This document shows positions 3,010 through 20,282 of a stretch of 20,918 nucleotides of DNA, in pieces. This DNA comes from a virus. The stretch is taken from the IMG/VR virus record IMGVR_UViG_3300021964_005956, positions 1 through 20,918 of that record. One strand, written 5' to 3'. Made by a program: the position numbers and the translations under genes. The notes below the pieces were generated by a model that searched no databases, was not told where the DNA came from, and saw nothing but the letters and a program-made list of their open reading frames with translations. How positions within the stretch are numbered: the first letter of the stretch is position 1; every line of letters starts with the position of its first letter.

Positions 3010-3032
3010 GAAAAGTGCAACTTTTCTGTTGC
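3010..3032 (-). terminator. Hairpin after the tmRNA coding piece
   Basis: On the minus strand GCAAC-AGAAAA-GTTGC forms a 5-bp hairpin followed by ACTTTTC. It probably ends the tmRNA transcript before the katG promoter. The U-run is short and interrupted, so it may also be a processing stem. Confidence 0.5.
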
Positions 3033-3177
3033 CAGGTAAGTTGCCAACCCCGTCACCTAGTTAACTAGGCAGCAAGAGCAAAGTTTTCGTTTGCGTCTAT
3101 AGTTTTGCTGATTTACGGTCTCGCCTACCGGTAATCTCTTTCATCCTTAACAAGCCAGTCGATCCTATTTCGCCCCC
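3033..3177 (-). ncRNA. ssrA: Two-piece tmRNA: coding (tag) piece
   Basis: This is the mRNA-like half of a permuted tmRNA, which rescues stalled ribosomes and tags their products for proteolysis. Its 5' end GGGGGCG (3171-3177) pairs over 7 bp with CGCCTCC of the acceptor piece, including a G3-U70 wobble, the main alanine-charging signal. The D-like segment GGATCGACTGG matches the tmRNA consensus. CTTGT near 3151-3155 can pair with ACAAG of the acceptor piece as helix P2. A PK1-like stem lies around 3113-3139. ATAGAC precedes the resume codon GCA (3092-3094). The tag frame reads ANENFALAA and stops at TAG (3065-3067), inside the palindrome CCTAGTTAACTAGG. The 3' end is uncertain; I placed it before the hairpin at 3017-3032. 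Confidence 0.92.
3065..3094 (-). other. tmRNA proteolysis-tag reading frame (ANENFALAA)
   Basis: The codons GCA AAC GAA AAC TTT GCT CTT GCT GCC TAG encode ANENFALAA and a stop. Together with the alanine carried by the tmRNA, the added tag would be AANENFALAA. The ALAA end is the classical ClpXP/ClpAP degron, and the start resembles the E. coli tag ANDENYALAA with one residue missing and Tyr changed to Phe. Confidence 0.92.
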
Positions 3178-3178
3178 A

Positions 3179-3367
3179 TCATAAAGACACTGAACCTACG
3201 GGTTTACAGATATATTCAACTGTATCCCAAGATCCATCTGCTGGCACTTCTAAGTATTCTACAAGCATAGTTTCACACTTTGCTTTAGTTTCAAACCATT
3301 GCACATCTTGTTCTAAGCAGGTCGAGCCCGAACAAACTGTTAATAGTATATGCCAAATAACTTCCAT
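3179..3367 (-). CDS. 62-aa Cys-containing protein inside the tmRNA intervening segment
   Basis: This ORF lies wholly inside the segment (3178-3382) that must be cut out of the permuted pre-tmRNA. It starts 15 bases after the acceptor CCA end and its stop falls one base before the first G of the coding piece. An AAGGA site ten bases before the ATG supports translation. The product has a hydrophobic start (MEVIWHILLTVCSG), which could be a short signal or membrane segment. It has five cysteines and a body of the type CxxxVQWFETKAKCETM...DTVEYICKP, resembling small secreted or periplasmic proteins. I do not recognise the family. Translation would compete with, or follow, excision of the spacer. 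It could instead be a chance frame, but the ribosome site and the near-exact fit to the spacer argue against that. Confidence 0.7.
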   Translation of the reverse strand: MEVIWHILLTVCSGSTCLEQDVQWFETKAKCETMLVEYLEVPADGSWDTVEYICKPVGSVSL

Positions 3368-3382
3368 TCTTCAGTGTCCTTA

Positions 3383-3449
3383 TGGTGGAGGCGCCGGGTA
3401 TCGCACCCGGGTCCTGTTCTTGTGACATACGATGCTGTCAACAATTACA
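3383..3449 (-). ncRNA. ssrA: Two-piece tmRNA: acceptor piece
   Basis: This is the tRNA-like 3' half of the tmRNA, encoded upstream of the coding half as in circularly permuted genes. It carries a T-arm CCGGG-TGCGATA-CCCGG, the 3' acceptor strand CGCCTCC, discriminator A, and an encoded CCA (3383-3385). The acceptor strand pairs with the coding piece 200 bases downstream. ACAAG and CATC can pair with CTTGT and GATG of the coding piece as P2. A TGACA/TGTCA hairpin is an alternative fold near the 5' end. The 5' end is placed from the expected start site of the promoter at 3456-3484 and is approximate. Confidence 0.88.
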
Positions 3450-3453
3450 CTTA

Positions 3454-3484
3454 TATTTATAGCACCTTTTATAGATGCTGTCAA
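3454..3484 (-). promoter_or_regulatory. tmRNA promoter (sigma70 with embedded T4-type late box)
   Basis: TTGACA (3479-3484), 17 bases, then TATAAA (3456-3461) form a strong host-type promoter. The same -10 region reads TATAAATA (3454-3461), a perfect T4-type late promoter, so the tmRNA could be made both early and late. A second copy of GTTGACAGCATC (3431-3442) lies 43 bases downstream, inside the acceptor piece. Confidence 0.75.
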
Positions 3485-3492
3485 CCATAAAA

Positions 3493-3583
3493 TGGTAGCA
3501 GGACCGGGATTCGAACCCGGATCAGCCAATTATCTGTTGCTACGGAGTATAAACCCGCTGGTTTACCATTAACCTACCCTGCT
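3493..3583 (-). tRNA. tRNA with long variable arm, predicted anticodon UAU (AUA)
   Basis: The acceptor strands AGCAGGG and TCCTGCT pair over 7 bp with discriminator A and an encoded CCA. The D-arm is GGTT-AATGGTA-AACC. The anticodon arm is GCGGG-TTTATAC-TCCGT, giving anticodon UAU at 3549-3551, with two G-U pairs in the stem. The T-arm CCGGG-TTCGAAT-CCCGG is perfect. The variable region is about 21 bases and can form an AGCAA/TTGGCT stem, a class II feature normally limited to Leu, Ser and Tyr tRNAs. The anticodon would read isoleucine AUA, but the charged amino acid cannot be settled from the body. Confidence 0.8.
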
Positions 3584-3586
3584 ATT

Positions 3587-3661
3587 TGGTGCGCCCGGAG
3601 AGATTCGAACTCCCGACTAGACCGTTATGAGCGGCCGGTTCTACCACTGAACTACAAGCGC
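3587..3661 (-). tRNA. tRNA with CAU anticodon (Met, or Ile2 if lysidine-modified)
   Basis: All arms fold: acceptor GCGCTTG/CGGGCGC with two T-G pairs, D-arm GTTC/GAAC, anticodon stem GGCCG/CGGTC with loop CTCATAA, and T-arm GGGAG-TTCGAAT-CTCTC. CCA is encoded. The anticodon CAU lies at 3627-3629. Only three bases separate it from the tRNA at 3493. Elongator Met and AUA-reading Ile2 share the loop CTCATAA, so the isotype is open; the lack of a C1-A72 mismatch argues against initiator Met. Confidence 0.92.
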
Positions 3662-3670
3662 ATTATTAAA

Positions 3671-3746
3671 TGGTGGGCCCACTAGGATTTGAACCTAGGA
3701 CCAATGGATTATGAGTCCACTGCTCTTACCACTGAGCTATAGGCCC
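3671..3746 (-). tRNA. tRNA with CAU anticodon (second; Met or Ile2)
   Basis: The acceptor GGGCCTA/TGGGCCC, D-arm GCTC/GAGC, anticodon stem GTGGA/TCCAT with loop CTCATAA, and T-arm CTAGG-TTCAAAT-CCTAG all fold, with encoded CCA. The anticodon CAU lies at 3711-3713. The GGGCC acceptor start resembles bacterial Ile2 genes, so this one may be the AUA reader and its neighbour the Met tRNA. That is a guess. Confidence 0.92.
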
Positions 3747-5257: not shown

Positions 5258-5548
5258 TTATCCACCTGCAAATACATTTGGTGAGCCTGCTGCAACACTT
5301 GTGCATCCTGAAATGGCATCACCTACCCTACCTGTTCCTACACTGTTGGTGAACACCGAAGTTGATCCCACAGCAATTGGTGCTGAGTGTGGAGGACATG
5401 GTGCTCCTGGCAATAGATGAGTGGTATTGACATCTCCCTGTCTGCTTACAGGAATGTTGTTTGCAAACACATTAGGTGATCCCACAGCACGGGTCATTCC
5501 CGAACAGTGTGCTACGTCTGCATCACCTATTCTAGTTACTGCTGGCAT
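5258..5548 (-). CDS. PAAR-repeat spike-tip protein
   Basis: This 96-aa protein is a PAAR-motif protein, the sharp cone that caps the cell-puncturing spike of contractile tails (T4 gp5.4) and type VI systems. It begins MPAVTRIGD, contains repeated units of the type GSPNVFANNIPVSRQGD and GSTSVFTNSVGTGRVGD, and ends GSPNVFAGG. His and Cys residues (AHCSG, PPHSAP, SGCTS) fit the metal site at the tip. The length is normal for a stand-alone PAAR domain. A GGGAGAG ribosome site precedes it, and it overlaps the upstream 69-aa gene by 17 bases. It is good evidence for a contractile-tailed phage. Confidence 0.93.
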   Translation of the reverse strand: MPAVTRIGDADVAHCSGMTRAVGSPNVFANNIPVSRQGDVNTTHLLPGAPCPPHSAPIAVGSTSVFTNSVGTGRVGDAISGCTSVAAGSPNVFAGG

Positions 5549-10347: not shown

Positions 10348-11928
10348 TTACACACCATATGACACATCAAAGGATATGTTGCCGGTTTGTCCTGTGGAAG
10401 TTGGATTCTTGTAGTAAAGAACTATTGTTTCAATACCACTATCTGTATCGTTATCTCTTAGTTCAGCATCAAATTGAAAGTTGGTCATAATTTTTCCACC
10501 TTCTGATGTTGCTGCTGTTTCATCCGAATACTGATACGAATCAGTGAATGCTATTTTAGATAAATCATCACCTACGGTAAATGTAATCTTTCCGTATCTA
10601 ACATGAACACCCAACCGAAGAATATAGTTTACAGAAATAAAATTATTCAAAGCAGAAAATGTTGTTACTGGTCTAAAACTATTTGAAAGATAAATTTCAG
10701 AAGAATTTTTGTTAATAAATTCTACCCTATCGCTATTGAATACTTCAGTAACGTTAGGTATAGTTTCTGAAGTTACTATTCCTGCTTGCTGTTGTCTATC
10801 ATTAGTTGATGCCATGACTAAGTTATCAGTGCTTTCGCCGAATGATATCATTGACCATACTGGGTTGACTGCGGTGTTTGTTTCGTTACCACAGTTTTTA
10901 AAATCGCATCTGTAAAACCTAGTGCTTTTACCAGCGTTTGAAAACCAAACATATCGGCTTATTTCTTCAAAATCGCAATGTTCGATATTCCATCTGTTTG
11001 TTTGTCCAGAAACACCATTGACATATATTCCTGTGTCGTTAGCATAAAACTTACTGTCCATGAAATCAACTCTTGTTTCAGTTGATATTGTTTGACTACA
11101 TTTAACAGCAATTGCATTAAATTCAAAAATACAATTGTTAAACTTAATCCCGTCAACTTTAATACCTGCTATACTATTATTCCAAAAGACAGCCGCAGGC
11201 TGTGTTGATAGTGTTATAGAACCAGTAGGAGTTCCTAGACTGTATTCTCCTCTCCATTTAACGTCCTTAAACAATGTATTGCTTAATCCAGTTAAAACTG
11301 TCTGTCCGTTACTTCTATCTATTGTAAGATTTTCTATTCTAATATTTTCTGGTCTATCACTACTTGAAAACGAAGCAAGTTGGCTTCCTGCCGCAGAAAT
11401 AAATCTAATATTTCTATCTCCTAATTTAATAACTGCACCAGTTTGTGTTTCGCCTCTTAGAATAGCGTTACTTGGTATTTCAAGATCGCTAGTAAATAGA
11501 TATTCTCCATTTGGTATCTTAAGCACTTTTTTATAAGTGTCGTCTGTATTTCTAAATAATTCTGTGAATGCATTAGTAAACGCTGTCGAGCAATCAGTCG
11601 ACCCGTCCGGAACGGCTCCGAAGTCAATTACTGAAACTTCAATTTCATCTATCTTTCCTAACAGTGTTCTTGGCTGTGAAAGTGTAATACTTAGATCATC
11701 GGATGCAAATTTATAACTAGAAGCAAGTTCTAATATATTATCATGTTCGGTAAGTATTTTTGTGTTGCCTACATACGGAGCCCCTTCTTGAACTGAGCCG
11801 TTACCTATAAAAAGTTCTTGCGAATCAACTGCCCATGCAAGTTCAGCAGAACTTAACTGTGGAACACCACTATTTGAATTTTTTTGTCCTCTACGGATCT
11901 GTATCTTGCTTATTTGAACGACAGCCAC
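10348..11928 (-). CDS. Tail fibre/tailspike-like protein with pectate-lyase-type beta-helix
   Basis: This 526-aa protein begins with a virion-anchoring segment (residues about 5-60: QIRRG...LSSAELAWAVDSQELFIGNG) typical of phage fibres with an MTD-type N-terminal domain. VIDFGAVPDGSTDCSTAF (about residues 100-117) is the opening motif of the pectate-lyase superfamily beta-helix. A long run of short strands follows (IRIENLTID, GIKVDGIKFNNCIFEFNAIAV, WNIEHCDFEEI, TRFYRCDF). The C-terminal 130 residues are another beta-rich domain, perhaps for trimerisation or receptor binding. It probably binds or cleaves host surface glycans; catalytic residues cannot be assigned. A GGATAAATA late box lies 26 bases upstream and a terminator follows. 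Confidence 0.88.
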   Translation of the reverse strand: MAVVQISKIQIRRGQKNSNSGVPQLSSAELAWAVDSQELFIGNGSVQEGAPYVGNTKILTEHDNILELASSYKFASDDLSITLSQPRTLLGKIDEIEVSVIDFGAVPDGSTDCSTAFTNAFTELFRNTDDTYKKVLKIPNGEYLFTSDLEIPSNAILRGETQTGAVIKLGDRNIRFISAAGSQLASFSSSDRPENIRIENLTIDRSNGQTVLTGLSNTLFKDVKWRGEYSLGTPTGSITLSTQPAAVFWNNSIAGIKVDGIKFNNCIFEFNAIAVKCSQTISTETRVDFMDSKFYANDTGIYVNGVSGQTNRWNIEHCDFEEISRYVWFSNAGKSTRFYRCDFKNCGNETNTAVNPVWSMISFGESTDNLVMASTNDRQQQAGIVTSETIPNVTEVFNSDRVEFINKNSSEIYLSNSFRPVTTFSALNNFISVNYILRLGVHVRYGKITFTVGDDLSKIAFTDSYQYSDETAATSEGGKIMTNFQFDAELRDNDTDSGIETIVLYYKNPTSTGQTGNISFDVSYGV

Positions 11929-14459: not shown

Positions 14460-15272
14460 TTAACCTGCTAACGTTTTTAGTAGACGTGATTCGTAATTAA
14501 TTGATTCACGCTGTTCACGACCTGCTGTTTCAATGCCGCCTGCTGCTGGCTCTGCTGTTGCAAAGTCATCTGCTGGTGCTTCTGCTGGTGCTTCTGCTCC
14601 TGCATCTGCTGCTGGTTCAGCCATATCGGCCGCTCCGCCTTCTTCTGGCTCTGCACCAAGCATGTCGCCTGCTGTCTCTTCGCCTGCTAGAACGCCAACT
14701 GCACTTGATAGTGCTTCACGTGTTGATTTTAAGTTTTCCAATGCTGTTTGGATTGCTGGTGCACTTGATTCAATAAACTGTTTAGACTCAGCCTGTCCAA
14801 TTTCGTCTCTAATTGAATCGCCTAGTTGTAATAGTGTTTCATTCTCCATTGAAGAAATCTCTTCAATGAAACGGCTAATTCTATCAACCATGGTCTTTGC
14901 TGTTACGATAGCACTGGCCTGTTGAATTTCACCTTCTGTGACTTTTGTTTCCATTTCTTCTCCGGATGTTTGTTCTTGTGTTTCTGGGGATTCGTCAAGT
15001 TCAAGACCTTTAATTGCAACTTCTTCTCTTTCAGATAGTTCAGCATTAATAGCATCCAGCATCCACTGTGCTTGATGGTATGCATCATTTTCTAAGTTTT
15101 CATTAAATCCTGATTCGCTACGAACTTGATGTAACTGTGTGCGTAACTTATTACGTGCATCTTCTAGTTTAGCGGCATCAAATGTAGAAAAGTCAATTTT
15201 TTTGCCGAAAGCCTTGTGAATACTTTCATTCATCTTTGCTGCTTTTGCTTTAAATAGGTCCTGTGTTTTCAT
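14460..15272 (-). CDS. 270-aa acidic, Ala/Glu-rich virion or scaffold-type protein
   Basis: I start this at ATG 15272 (MKTQDLFKAKAAKMN) because AGAAGGAT lies just upstream; the frame extends 30 codons further but lacks support. The body is helical and charged, with a long helix around ISRFIEEISSMENETLLQLGDSIRDEI. The last 80 residues are low-complexity Glu/Ala/Pro (AEPAADAGAEAPAEAP), followed by a short basic end. The acidic, helical, repeat-rich make-up fits prohead core or scaffold proteins of T4-like phages, but no specific family is certain. An AATAAATA late box lies 26 bases upstream, inside the preceding gene. Confidence 0.78.
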   Translation of the reverse strand: MKTQDLFKAKAAKMNESIHKAFGKKIDFSTFDAAKLEDARNKLRTQLHQVRSESGFNENLENDAYHQAQWMLDAINAELSEREEVAIKGLELDESPETQEQTSGEEMETKVTEGEIQQASAIVTAKTMVDRISRFIEEISSMENETLLQLGDSIRDEIGQAESKQFIESSAPAIQTALENLKSTREALSSAVGVLAGEETAGDMLGAEPEEGGAADMAEPAADAGAEAPAEAPADDFATAEPAAGGIETAGREQRESINYESRLLKTLAG

Positions 15273-15297
15273 ATCCTTCTTCCCAGATTGTGTAATA

Positions 15298-15305
15298 TAT
15301 TTATT
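15298..15305 (-). promoter_or_regulatory. T4-type late promoter box AATAAATA
   Basis: The box overlaps the stop of the 147-aa gene and lies 26 bases before the 270-aa start, the same spacing as in front of the tail-fibre gene. Confidence 0.6.
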
Positions 15306-15744
15306 CAAAACTTGCCAAATCTTCTGCTCGTTCCTTTGCTGATATAGCCTTTTCTTTAGCAAATTGATATCGTGTCCATAAAATATCAGCTCTTATGCTA
15401 TTTCCTGCATTCACTGCCCTATGATAATTATCTATAAAGATCTTGCTATCAACGAAGTGTTTGCTGTATTCAACATCTAAACTATATAGCTCGTCGCATA
15501 GTTTCTTTGTGTCATTCCAGGCTAGTAAGTTTGCCAGGCGTATGGCCACTGCGTTTAGGCTAATTTCCTTGTATAATATTTTGCCATTCTTTATTATGTT
15601 TTTAAGAGGTCCGGAACTTTCTATCAGCACGCTACCCACTTGTATTCCCTTGTCTGTTTTTACAGGCAAGATGGTTCCCTGTTCCGCAAACTTCTTGTAT
15701 GTGGATTTTACTAACTGTTCAAAACGTTTCGAAACGTCACTCAT
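15301..15744 (-). CDS. 147-aa helical hypothetical phage protein
   Basis: I start at ATG 15744 (MSDVSKRFEQLVKSTYKKF) because the longer frame to 15777 runs through a terminator hairpin. The protein has a beta-type middle (GTILPVKTDKGIQVGSVLI) and long helices (LCDELYSLDVEYSKHF, ADILWTRYQFAKEKAISAKERAEDL). I do not recognise the family. The ATG directly abuts the U-run of a hairpin terminator, so its only possible ribosome site (AAGGGG) is inside the hairpin, which could control translation. A TTAAATA late box lies about 23 bases upstream. Confidence 0.72.
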   Translation of the reverse strand: MSDVSKRFEQLVKSTYKKFAEQGTILPVKTDKGIQVGSVLIESSGPLKNIIKNGKILYKEISLNAVAIRLANLLAWNDTKKLCDELYSLDVEYSKHFVDSKIFIDNYHRAVNAGNSIRADILWTRYQFAKEKAISAKERAEDLASFE

Positions 15745-17904: not shown

Positions 17905-19008
17905 TTAATCGCTTCTAAATGGTGTCCAACGGTCCCTAGGCACTAGTTTTACCTTGTCCTTGGTCTTGACATAGCCTTCTCCGCCTGGCTTGCCACCCGT
18001 TGTAGCAACTACATCACCTTCTGCTTTATCAAGTTCGTCGATGACTTCGTTCTTGGCCTTCATGAGCTCAGTAACAAGATAGAAGATGTCCTTCATTACC
18101 TGTTCCTGCGTCTTAGCAATATTTAGTATCTTCTCCTGTTTGTTGGCAGATACCTTTGAATTTTGAAGCCAATTGAGGAAACTGTTTAAATTTAAATCCT
18201 CTAACTTCTTGGCACGGCTCATTTGATTGATGTAGGTGTAGAATATGTCTGCTAGGTCGCTTAACCCCTTCTGTGGTGTAAAGAAGTTCTTGATGTCACC
18301 CTGTGCCTTGTTCGCTACCTTTTCGATGTTGCCCAAGTTGTCCGCATTCACAGCAGGAGCCTTTGAAACATACTGCTGTCCAAGAACAATAAGGTCGCTT
18401 GTTCCGTTAAATTGTTTCACATTATCAATAGGTGTTCCACTCTTGTCACCAAAGTATTCATAGGTGTTGTGTGCCGCTACAGCAATCTTGCTTTTGCCTA
18501 TGCGTCTTCCTATATCGCTATCTGCTCTTACATTATAAGTTGTTTGATTGGGTGTAAAACTTATGGAGCCATCACTTCCACTATATGGCTTGCCTGGGTG
18601 ATATAGGAGGTCGCCATACACATAACCTCTGTAGTCTGACGGTGTTGCCTTTTCAAAGATGGGCCACAGGTCTGCCATGTCCTTAGCAAACTTCGCACGC
18701 CAGTCCTCATCCTTGCCTCTGCTTAGAATAAACTTTTCTAGTTCTTCAGGACTTGAAGACTTTCCTTCTTCTCTGCCCCAATTGTTCTTGCCCACCATGC
18801 GGAACGTTCCATCCTCATCACGTCCCCAATACACTGTAGGGTTACCGTCCCACTTGATCGCAACGTCAGAAGCATCCTGTTCCATATCCTTAATGATTTG
18901 CACGGCACGCTTGGCACCATCATCTGGATTGGTGAACACGAGATCTTCCAGGTGATTAAACTCTCTACCAACCTTCTTTGCTTCCGTTAAAAATTCAAAT
19001 GCTCTCAT
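17905..19008 (-). CDS. Ligase-like (KxDG motif) conserved phage protein
   Basis: This 367-aa protein has KWDGNP at residues 52-57, resembling motif I (KxDGxR) of covalent nucleotidyltransferases such as DNA and RNA ligases and capping enzymes. A possible glycine/acid motif follows at 129-136 (YVYGDLLY, compare xxDGEL), and a possible later lysine motif near GKSKIAVAAH (171-180). These spacings fit a ligase adenylation domain, but the assignment needs a profile search. I recall close relatives in T4-like marine phages as an uncharacterised family. The C-terminal half is helical and lysine-rich. The start MRAFEFLTEAKK resembles T4 capsid-targeting peptides. Its ATG overlaps the 52-aa gene stop as ATGA. 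Confidence 0.72.
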   Translation of the reverse strand: MRAFEFLTEAKKVGREFNHLEDLVFTNPDDGAKRAVQIIKDMEQDASDVAIKWDGNPTVYWGRDEDGTFRMVGKNNWGREEGKSSSPEELEKFILSRGKDEDWRAKFAKDMADLWPIFEKATPSDYRGYVYGDLLYHPGKPYSGSDGSISFTPNQTTYNVRADSDIGRRIGKSKIAVAAHNTYEYFGDKSGTPIDNVKQFNGTSDLIVLGQQYVSKAPAVNADNLGNIEKVANKAQGDIKNFFTPQKGLSDLADIFYTYINQMSRAKKLEDLNLNSFLNWLQNSKVSANKQEKILNIAKTQEQVMKDIFYLVTELMKAKNEVIDELDKAEGDVVATTGGKPGGEGYVKTKDKVKLVPRDRWTPFRSD

Positions 19009-19163
19009 TTCTTTAATAGTTTCTTCTGTCTGTTTGTCTTATCCACATACTTTGCATGCGGAACTTTTAAATTCTTCTTACCATACACATCGCCTATGGT
19101 ATGCATCTTTCCTGGACGCTCAAATGCACTGTATCTTATGTCTAACACTTCACTAATACGCAT
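19005..19163 (-). CDS. 52-aa basic protein between the nucleotidyltransferase and ligase-like genes
   Basis: A complete frame starts at ATG 19163, overlapping the end of the nucleotidyltransferase gene by 11 bases, and stops in an ATGA overlap with the next gene. The product MRISEVLDIRYSAFERPGKM... is basic (NLKVPHAKYVDKTNRQKKLLKK). The double overlap strongly suggests a real gene of a coupled set. It has no recognisable domain; a small nucleic-acid-binding partner is one possibility. Confidence 0.78.
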   Translation of the reverse strand: MRISEVLDIRYSAFERPGKMHTIGDVYGKKNLKVPHAKYVDKTNRQKKLLKK

Positions 19164-19938
19164 CGACGATATCTATCATTTGTCTCATCCAACCTATAGA
19201 GTTTGGTTGGAAACTTTCTACTTGTCCTGCCTTGGGCAGTTCAAGTCCATCCTTCTCGAATGTTTCTCTTGCATCCGCTACCAGTTCCTCGTAGTTGGGC
19301 AACTTCTTGATGTAGCCTATGATACCTTCCACGCTATCAATGGTGGATGGCGTTGCGGTTTGACCCAGCAGAGTTTTTGCAATCTGGTTGGGATCCTTTG
19401 TAATTAATTCGTTTGTTTCTCTGTCTATTAAACCATTGTTTGCTGACCACTTCATATCCTTGGTTTTTGCTATGCTGGCAAGCAGGATGTGTCTATGAAC
19501 ACCTTTGAAGGAACTGCCTTCACCGCTTCCCTGTAGGCTAAACTTCATCCATTCAGGATCACCAAACATCAGATCAGTTTGCACGAAACCATTTGCGGGG
19601 TCACCCTTGATTGGAGTTTTAAAGTGGACTGAAATGCCTGACTTTCTGATCCACTGCTTGGTGTCTTCACCTTCGTGATTCTTATTAACATAGTCTGCTA
19701 GTTTGCTTTCCAGTTCTCCCTTGGTTATCTTAGTGCTGTCAACTGCAACGTCTAGGTCGCCGCTGTCTGCTTTCTTGCCCGTTGTTCCGAGCATGTTGTC
19801 AGTTAGTTCTAGGTCAACGATTCCTTCCAACCATTGCAGTGTTGGAACCACGTCAGCCTGCTGAATTCTCTGTGTGGCAGATTCGCCCTCGGGCGTCTTA
19901 AAAATATTGCCGCCTTCTTTAAGTAATGTTCGTGTCAT
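19153..19938 (-). CDS. Pol-beta-type nucleotidyltransferase
   Basis: This 261-aa protein holds the pol-beta superfamily signature: LGTTGKKADSGDLDVAVD (residues 50-67), with the metal-binding pair Asp61 and Asp63, and a third acidic residue, Asp122, in VQTDLMFG. The N-terminal helix (ESATQRIQQADVVPTLQWLEGI) and C-terminal helices fit the family. Members add nucleotides to tRNA, proteins or small molecules; the substrate is unknown here. It overlaps the 93-aa gene upstream by 20 bases and the 52-aa gene downstream by 11, so it is one translation unit with the ligase-like gene. Confidence 0.82.
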   Translation of the reverse strand: MTRTLLKEGGNIFKTPEGESATQRIQQADVVPTLQWLEGIVDLELTDNMLGTTGKKADSGDLDVAVDSTKITKGELESKLADYVNKNHEGEDTKQWIRKSGISVHFKTPIKGDPANGFVQTDLMFGDPEWMKFSLQGSGEGSSFKGVHRHILLASIAKTKDMKWSANNGLIDRETNELITKDPNQIAKTLLGQTATPSTIDSVEGIIGYIKKLPNYEELVADARETFEKDGLELPKAGQVESFQPNSIGWMRQMIDIVDAY

Positions 19939-20200
19939 CGCTCTTCTTCGTTCTCTTGGATTCTGTTATCTTGCGGATACCGCGATTAAATTTAGAAACA
20001 TCAGCACCCTTAATGCTGTTTATGAAACGTCTTTCCAATTCTAGTGCCGTATCTTCATCATAGGTCTTATGAATAAGTTCCATGAGGTTAATTGCACTAT
20101 CAATAATGTTAGCAGCTCGCGATTCGATAATGGATTCTGAATCCTTGCGATCGGCAATTGCATTTAATTCTTGTAGTATGGACCTAGTTTTTATTTTCAT
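19919..20200 (-). CDS. 93-aa helical hypothetical protein heading the nucleotidyltransferase operon
   Basis: I start at ATG 20200 (MKIKTRSILQELNAIADR) with AGGAAA upstream. The longer frame begins with GTG at the expected transcription start and cannot be the main start. The product is all-helical and charged (IIESRAANIIDSAINLMELIHKTYDEDTALELERRF), ending in a basic tail. No family is recognised. It is first in a four-gene coupled operon behind a perfect sigma70 promoter. Confidence 0.8.
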   Translation of the reverse strand: MKIKTRSILQELNAIADRKDSESIIESRAANIIDSAINLMELIHKTYDEDTALELERRFINSIKGADVSKFNRGIRKITESKRTKKSDDTNIT

Positions 20201-20226: not shown

Positions 20227-20241
20227 CCTTTTTCTTCACAA

Positions 20242-20282
20242 ATTATATACGGCCTGATTTAGGTTGTCAACCTTTAGTTGAC
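20242..20282 (-). promoter_or_regulatory. Perfect sigma70 promoter with inverted repeat
   Basis: TTGACA (20265-20270), exactly 17 bases, then TATAAT (20242-20247) is the full consensus. GTCAAC-CTTTA-GTTGAC (20266-20282) is an inverted repeat overlapping the -35 and may be an operator. Confidence 0.92.

Follow-up and report, generated by a model that had tools for sequence, protein, structure and literature searches.

We analyzed a 20,918-nt stretch of viral DNA (IMG/VR record IMGVR_UViG_3300021964_005956, a fragment of 20.9 kb; hereafter the window), in which four overlapping minus-strand genes form a marine phage operon that may encode a two-enzyme nucleic-acid end-repair pair, loaded into the phage head and injected. 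We hold this proposal tentatively, at slightly below an even chance, from sequence motifs, predicted structures and analogy. Its components are firmer: as modeled, the 261-amino-acid (aa) product is very probably an enzyme of the Pol-beta/PolX class, and the motifs and model of the 367-aa product, a DUF6267 protein, place it with similar confidence among ligase-type covalent nucleotidyltransferases. Conserved synteny speaks for a coupling of the two, as does its recurrence in jumbo phages, there with a different ligase-like gene. The N-termini of both enzymes resemble capsid-targeting sequences and are perhaps the most telling feature of the locus.

A preliminary description, made from the sequence alone, had reported the four genes behind a perfect sigma70 site; the coordinates give successive overlaps of exactly 20, 11 and 4 bases, and the promoter matches at 12 of 12 positions. 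The motif IV (E344-G345), the motif V (K354) and the N-terminal tags of the enzymes are features beyond that account. The elements of the locus, all on the minus strand, are as follows.

20242..20270, minus: sigma70-type promoter, TTGACA-17-TATAAT, from a promoter scan, 12/12 matches
19919..20200, minus: 93-aa gene (106 aa if the GTG at 20239 is used)
19153..19938, minus: 261-aa nucleotidyltransferase gene, PolX-like (Pol-beta superfamily)
19915..19938, minus: tag MTRTLLKE of the nucleotidyltransferase, LxE before GGNIFK; predicted capsid-targeting/cleavage site
19750..19791, minus: catalytic motif LGTTG..SGD61xD63
19573..19575, minus: codon of the third catalytic Asp, D122, invariant in 64/64 relatives
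19005..19163, minus: gene for a 52-aa small basic protein with an MRISEVLD-type N-terminus, present in 100/294 loci
17905..19008, minus: 367-aa DUF6267 gene, predicted ligase-type covalent nucleotidyltransferase
18982..19008, minus: N-terminal tag MRAFEFLTE of the DUF6267 protein; cleavage predicted just ahead of A10
18844..18855, minus: motif I, K52-W-D-G55, in 82/82 relatives
18604..18627, minus: motif III-like GYVYGDLL (G128, D133, L135), from the alignment
18025..18336, minus: helical insert, residues ~225–328, between motifs III and IV, from the model
17968..17979, minus: motif IV, E344-G-Y-V347, from the alignment
17935..17949, minus: motif V-like K354-L-V-P-R358, with V356 at the usual second lysine of KxK

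Two coupled enzyme families

The 261-aa protein has the intact pol-beta active site claimed for it in the preliminary description: S59, G60, D61, D63, Q120 and D122 are invariant among 64 of 64 aligned relatives, and the G[GST] turn, DxD, third Asp and fold of the Pol-beta superfamily are all present. Its predicted structure (mean predicted local distance difference test score, pLDDT, 91.5; residues 1–7 disordered) agrees with the expected fold. Every Foldseek match listed among solved structures was a PolX polymerase (best E 3.6e-5, probability 1.0), and VIA-align gave Z 9.5 with a root-mean-square deviation (rmsd) of 3.4 over 182 residues; residues 14–204 are paired with Pol beta 142–335, that is, with the palm and C-terminal subdomain, without the 8-kDa domain. 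RlaP (PF10127) was rejected as an identity: the window protein had no family match at E up to 1, PF10127 was not among the 25 listed of 37 Pfam families for the 64 relatives, and hhalign gave P 0.3 with the catalytic motifs out of register. Two jumbo-phage proteins searched against PDB sequences at E up to 10 returned nothing relevant.

The 367-aa protein matches DUF6267 (PF19782) at 94.2 bits (E 1.4e-26; cut-off 27 bits), as do 82 of 82 relatives. K52, W53, D54, G55, D133, E344, G345, K354, V356 and R358 are invariant across the 82 aligned relatives and fit motifs I, III and IV and the first motif-V lysine of covalent nucleotidyltransferases; both the motif I KxDG, already recognized in the preliminary description, and the motif IV EGxh that mark the ligase/capping superfamily are present. 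Lys52, Asp61 and Asp63, the residues on whose conservation that description had staked its reading, thus show no exception in 82 and 64 relatives, respectively. In DNA ligases, motif V is followed by an OB domain. Here only nine residues follow R358 and the elements of the model leave no space for such a domain; as modeled, DUF6267 is distinguished by the helical insert together with the missing OB domain.

The DUF6267 prediction has a pLDDT of 91.2, with residues 1–11 disordered, and all 50 VIA-align matches listed are RNA or DNA ligases. In BFVD, ranks 1–11 (E up to 2.6e-6) go to phage proteins whose names mention no ligase and which we regard as DUF6267 relatives; two are called cytidyltransferase-like. 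Rank 12 is a 324-aa RNA ligase of Agrobacterium phage Atu_ph07 (E 0.01). In that phage, the gene overlapping the 261-aa relative likewise encodes 324 aa, with LDGS and EGVV motifs, and given the equal length the rank-12 protein is probably its product. Searches of PDB sequences with the family profiles, up to E 5, gave nothing relevant.

Relatives were collected from viral contigs by two scans with window proteins and two with alignments, which yielded 294 loci, several of which may derive from one contig. The neighborhood, whose conservation the preliminary description proposed to check, is retained: both large families occur in 275 of the 294 loci, nearly always in the order 93 aa, 261 aa, (52 aa), 367 aa; in almost all of them the 93-aa gene lies upstream. 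Since this order is kept, the three overlapping frames are real genes. Counted per distinct full-length DUF6267 protein (n = 177), a nucleotidyltransferase lies in the same locus for 173, namely a PolX-like enzyme for 162, a HIGH-type enzyme (NMNAT/cytidylyltransferase-like) for 10 and both for one; four have neither, two of which (L007 and L196) are at contig ends. In each of the seven HIGH-type loci inspected by eye, the partner gene directly follows the DUF6267 gene. The single protein with both partners (L179, G006) has one on each side.

In the jumbo phages Atu_ph07 and Phosso, the gene overlapping the 261-aa relative lies upstream of it and carries the LDGS and EGVV motifs in both. These ligase-like proteins and a PA5oct neighbor were considered as DUF6267 members and rejected, profile comparisons with the family having given no significant match. 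With the P-TIM40 protein as query, a search of 50,697 phage records detected DUF6267 in 467; on the cellular side there were four relatives in genome contigs, every one a metagenome-assembled genome record.

N-terminal tags and head packaging

The tags fit the T4-type pattern of about ten residues with cleavage after Glu, seen here in the sequence as MRAFEFLTE-A and MTRTLLKE-G. Among distinct nucleotidyltransferase relatives, 140 of 156 have [LIVFM]xE before GGN, and 84 (strict pattern) or 161 (loose pattern) of 177 ligase-like proteins are tagged; the DUF6267 proteins of HTVC008M and Melnitz likewise begin with tag-like sequences. Untagged jumbo-phage relatives of the nucleotidyltransferase start M-GGAAFK, M-GGRAFD or M-SGNAFG, and cleavage behind Glu would give the 261-aa enzyme a start of this kind. 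The strict pattern, M[KR]x2-3[EDNQ][FILVY][ILVFMY]xE, scored on one random member per family, stands at the N-terminus of 14 of 601 families; the expectation calculated from internal positions is 0.19, or 0.38 with Lys or Arg fixed at position 2. The exact value of this ratio is untrustworthy because the pattern was written post hoc and BLAST families may split relatives; 24 of the families have at least one tagged member.

In relatives, the tag recurs on genes inserted between the two enzymes, including genes for peptidoglycan-binding proteins. One such insert, found by our reading in eight loci on four contigs, is a tagged tRNA nucleotidyltransferase (PolyA_pol head, E 2.1e-36; L031:4862-5998). 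The first 42 residues of a tagged protein from a relative align with a PHROG annotated as internal head protein (E 5e-4). At L255:5756-6769, likewise between the nucleotidyltransferase and ligase-like genes, a tagged gene beginning MRAFEFILEGGWDTTVTQ... has no Pfam match; its product is perhaps a further nucleotidyltransferase. In L074, L081 and L166, some DUF6267 proteins have the peptide SINCSxPKGFSQKAHCAGxxK after the tag and ahead of the enzyme domain, and the same peptide is found in unrelated tagged proteins as well.

The genomic setting is that of head genes. The 93-aa protein matches phrog_11854 (head and packaging, virion structural protein; E 2.3e-17), and a second virion structural match, phrog_14154 (E 6.5e-8), lies on the same strand at 14463-15362; these two matches situate the locus among head genes. 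The N-terminus of the 93-aa protein is itself of the MKIKTRSILQEL type, and M[KR] plus 1–3 residues plus TR[ST][IL]L[QED]EL fits 134 of its 147 distinct relatives. A gp21-type (T4-type) prohead protease (PF03420) is present in two of eight related records.

Virion data come from relatives. In cyanophage S-PM2, T4-GC71 (DUF6267) is followed by T4-GC190, and the tagged cyanophage partner is a cytidylyltransferase. The T4-GC190 protein of S-SM1, which begins MKKFSAFLNEA, was detected in the virion by mass spectrometry, according to PMC3037559, and similar proteins are reported in PMC10665884 and PMC9602691 for the virions of S-CREM2, S-CBWM1, S-SZBM1 and S-SCSM1, detections that may reflect contamination, as the authors of the former caution. 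A tag-like start was seen by eye in seven of eight cyanophage HIGH proteins, the annotated S-PM2 protein being without it. For PA5oct, electrospray ionization tandem mass spectrometry underlies the annotation of its 261-aa-enzyme relative as a structural protein. Taken with the tags, these analogies make it reasonably probable that both enzymes are packaged into the phage head.

Mechanism, substrate and competing readings

In the proposed mechanism, the sigma70 site would drive both enzyme genes together with the head-protein gene. The LxE tags would then direct both enzymes to the prohead core and be removed by a prohead protease, which would leave the 261-aa enzyme beginning with GGNIFK, near the start of untagged relatives. 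Delivered into the cell along with the DNA, the PolX-like enzyme would, judging from active sites and folds, supply the nucleotides lacking at a broken end; the DUF6267 enzyme would take adenosine monophosphate (AMP) on Lys52 and seal that end.

The preliminary description had read the operon as a candidate nucleic-acid repair or modification module with the logic of RNA repair. Its enzyme classes are supported, and so is their coupling, by synteny and the jumbo-phage recurrence; RNA repair as such does not follow from them. For the substrate, we give RNA, probably cleaved tRNA, an even chance; it is favored by the missing OB domain and the RNA ligases topping the VIA-align list, and by the tagged tRNA nucleotidyltransferase of relatives together with the tRNAs and tmRNA of the window. 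DNA gaps or ends are a distinct but lesser possibility, favored by the PolX fold and the replication-gene neighbors, and some other transfer of AMP or another nucleoside monophosphate (NMP) is improbable.

Several results weigh against an injected end-repair pair. The motif V of covalent nucleotidyltransferases is KxK, with two lysines; DUF6267 lacks the second, V356 being invariant in its place and R358, two residues on, invariant as well. For the nucleotidyltransferase fold that the preliminary description expected of the 367-aa protein, ligases dominate the matches, but the statistics are weak: Foldseek against solved structures was non-significant (best E 0.27) although DNA and RNA ligases rank first, and the best VIA-align match, a Naegleria RNA ligase, reached Z 6.6 (rmsd 4.8, 179 aligned), where values below 8 may, by the tool's own warning, reflect a common arrangement. 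For the 261-aa family, profile alignment to full PolX proteins was in register yet non-significant (P 0.017), and alignment to the palm plus C-terminal part gave P 0.084, with two of 60 column shuffles scoring higher. A looser tag pattern, applied to two genomes, matched 15 of 328 N-termini and 28 of 974 control windows. The cyanophage DUF6267 proteins looked at are mostly untagged, starting at a conserved HLEHLED, and are located in a replication module; the PA5oct homologue is untagged too. The prohead protease was seen in only those two of eight records, and in none of 10 others by protein search; an HK97-type S78 protease, considered as the maturation enzyme, was rejected, none occurring in 11 records. 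The contamination caution on the virion detections counts on the same side.

A resemblance to PolX rather than RlaP makes DNA gap-filling a serious rival: in the manner of African swine fever virus with its PolX and ligase, a minimal PolX would fill gaps and the ligase would close nicks or join ends in the phage genome, either within the head or immediately after injection. PolX is the nearest fold of the 261-aa enzyme (palm and C-terminal subdomain), and its relatives adjoin primase/helicase genes in Phosso and Atu_ph07, primase and exonuclease in Flavobacterium phage immuto, and gp41/MazG in cyanophages. Yet an OB domain would be expected of DNA ligases, the top structural matches are RNA ligases, albeit only about 1 Z from DNA ligases, and a tagged CCA-type tRNA nucleotidyltransferase lies within the operon of some relatives, so that we consider a DNA pair possible but doubtful.

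Another rival is a cytoplasmic role. Here both proteins would be ordinary repair or replication enzymes, and the N-terminal motif a sequence preference of the region or a tag for interactions, in keeping with the replication-module setting and mostly untagged starts of cyanophage DUF6267, with the absence of a prohead protease from most relatives searched, and with the weak loose-pattern enrichment in two genomes beside a strict pattern devised after examples. The tag frequency across families (14 of 601 against 0.19 expected), the adjacent head genes and the detection of a tagged partner in virions by mass spectrometry all run counter to such a role, which we judge rather unlikely.

Least probable is a pair that ligates nothing and instead modifies or caps RNA or protein at the start of infection by NMP or NAD-related transfer: the exchange of PolX for HIGH-type partners would fit a shared nucleotide product over shared end chemistry, phrog_455 covers DUF6267 together with a cytidylyltransferase-like part, BFVD entries matching the model are named cytidyltransferase-like and V356 replaces the second motif-V lysine, but every VIA-align match listed is a ligase, and the same setting also contains a tRNA nucleotidyltransferase gene and separate ligase-like genes.

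Locus setting, known systems and implications

The perfect promoter stands out alone, the scan having given nine sites overall against 12.2 expected in shuffles, with no enrichment. Its -10 box ends three bases ahead of the GTG at 20239, which makes the ATG at 20200 the likelier start of the 93-aa gene. Searches for a function of the 52-aa protein, and of the tagged families downstream, gave none. Elsewhere in the window, the region 3014-3746 (minus strand) holds a permuted alphaproteobacterial-type transfer-messenger RNA (tmRNA; RF01849, 114.7 bits) and three tRNAs (Ile tat, two cat), as the preliminary description had noted in saying that the phage carries its own; these RNAs suggest an alphaproteobacterial host. 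Also on the minus strand, a 708-aa peroxidase-family protein (788-2914; PF00141, E 5.3e-68, two stretches) looks like KatG catalase-peroxidase, an unusual cargo for a phage; a pectate-lyase-like tail spike with an Mtd-like N-terminus below cut-off is encoded at 10348-11928, and a spike-tip protein with a PAAR motif at 5258-5548.

That a Pol-beta enzyme may work with a phage RNA ligase has already been published, for RlaP. According to PMC7824862, RlaP is a Pol-beta nucleotidyltransferase found with an RNA ligase in jumbo phages and bacteria and predicted to restore lost nucleotides ahead of sealing. The window operon shares with that account the coupling of a Pol-beta-superfamily enzyme to a phage ligase, and differs in that the 261-aa family is PolX-like, the ligase is DUF6267 and LxE tags are present on both. 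According to PMC9026906 and PMC5694885, T4 loads its internal proteins and Alt into the head by means of a 10-residue propeptide cut after Glu. Likewise, a propeptide-like N-terminus of about ten residues ending in Glu stands here before non-homologous cargo, with a prohead protease in relatives; unlike in T4, the cargo would be a repair-type enzyme pair, its packaging predicted from sequence.

African swine fever virus encodes a minimal PolX and a DNA ligase, according to PMC5330486 and PMC6344480, and so resembles the window in combining a PolX without the 8-kDa domain and a ligase in one virus; the likeness noted is in enzyme content, the ligase here lacks the additional domains and its substrate may be RNA. 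Cyanophage T4-GC190 (cytidylyltransferase/NMNAT), described in PMC3037559, PMC10665884 and PMC9602691, adjoins DUF6267, is tagged and occurs in virions; it differs from the window pair in its HIGH rather than Pol-beta fold, and is absent from most of the clade of the window. In the literature searched, which took in few subscription journals, we found no account of DUF6267 as a ligase-type enzyme, of its alternative partners or of capsid-targeting tags on such a pair; the term DUF6267 occurred in no paper, and among the papers listed none evidently tied capsid targeting to cyanophages or to a ligase or nucleotidyltransferase.

A broader reading, speculative and unlikely as a whole, is that DUF6267 is a new covalent nucleotidyltransferase family in which a helical domain replaces the OB domain and a PolX- or HIGH-type enzyme serves as partner, forming head cargo of marine T4-like phages, a ready-made repair or modification kit that acts in the first minutes of infection, before phage expression. 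The present analysis gives DUF6267, a family without an assigned function, a testable enzymatic role and suggests a working partner for the virion-carried nucleotidyltransferases of cyanophages. The tag offers a route to listing the head cargo of marine phages by sequence alone and, if the tags act as in T4, the end-repair pair would be injected and able to counter host nucleases before phage expression.

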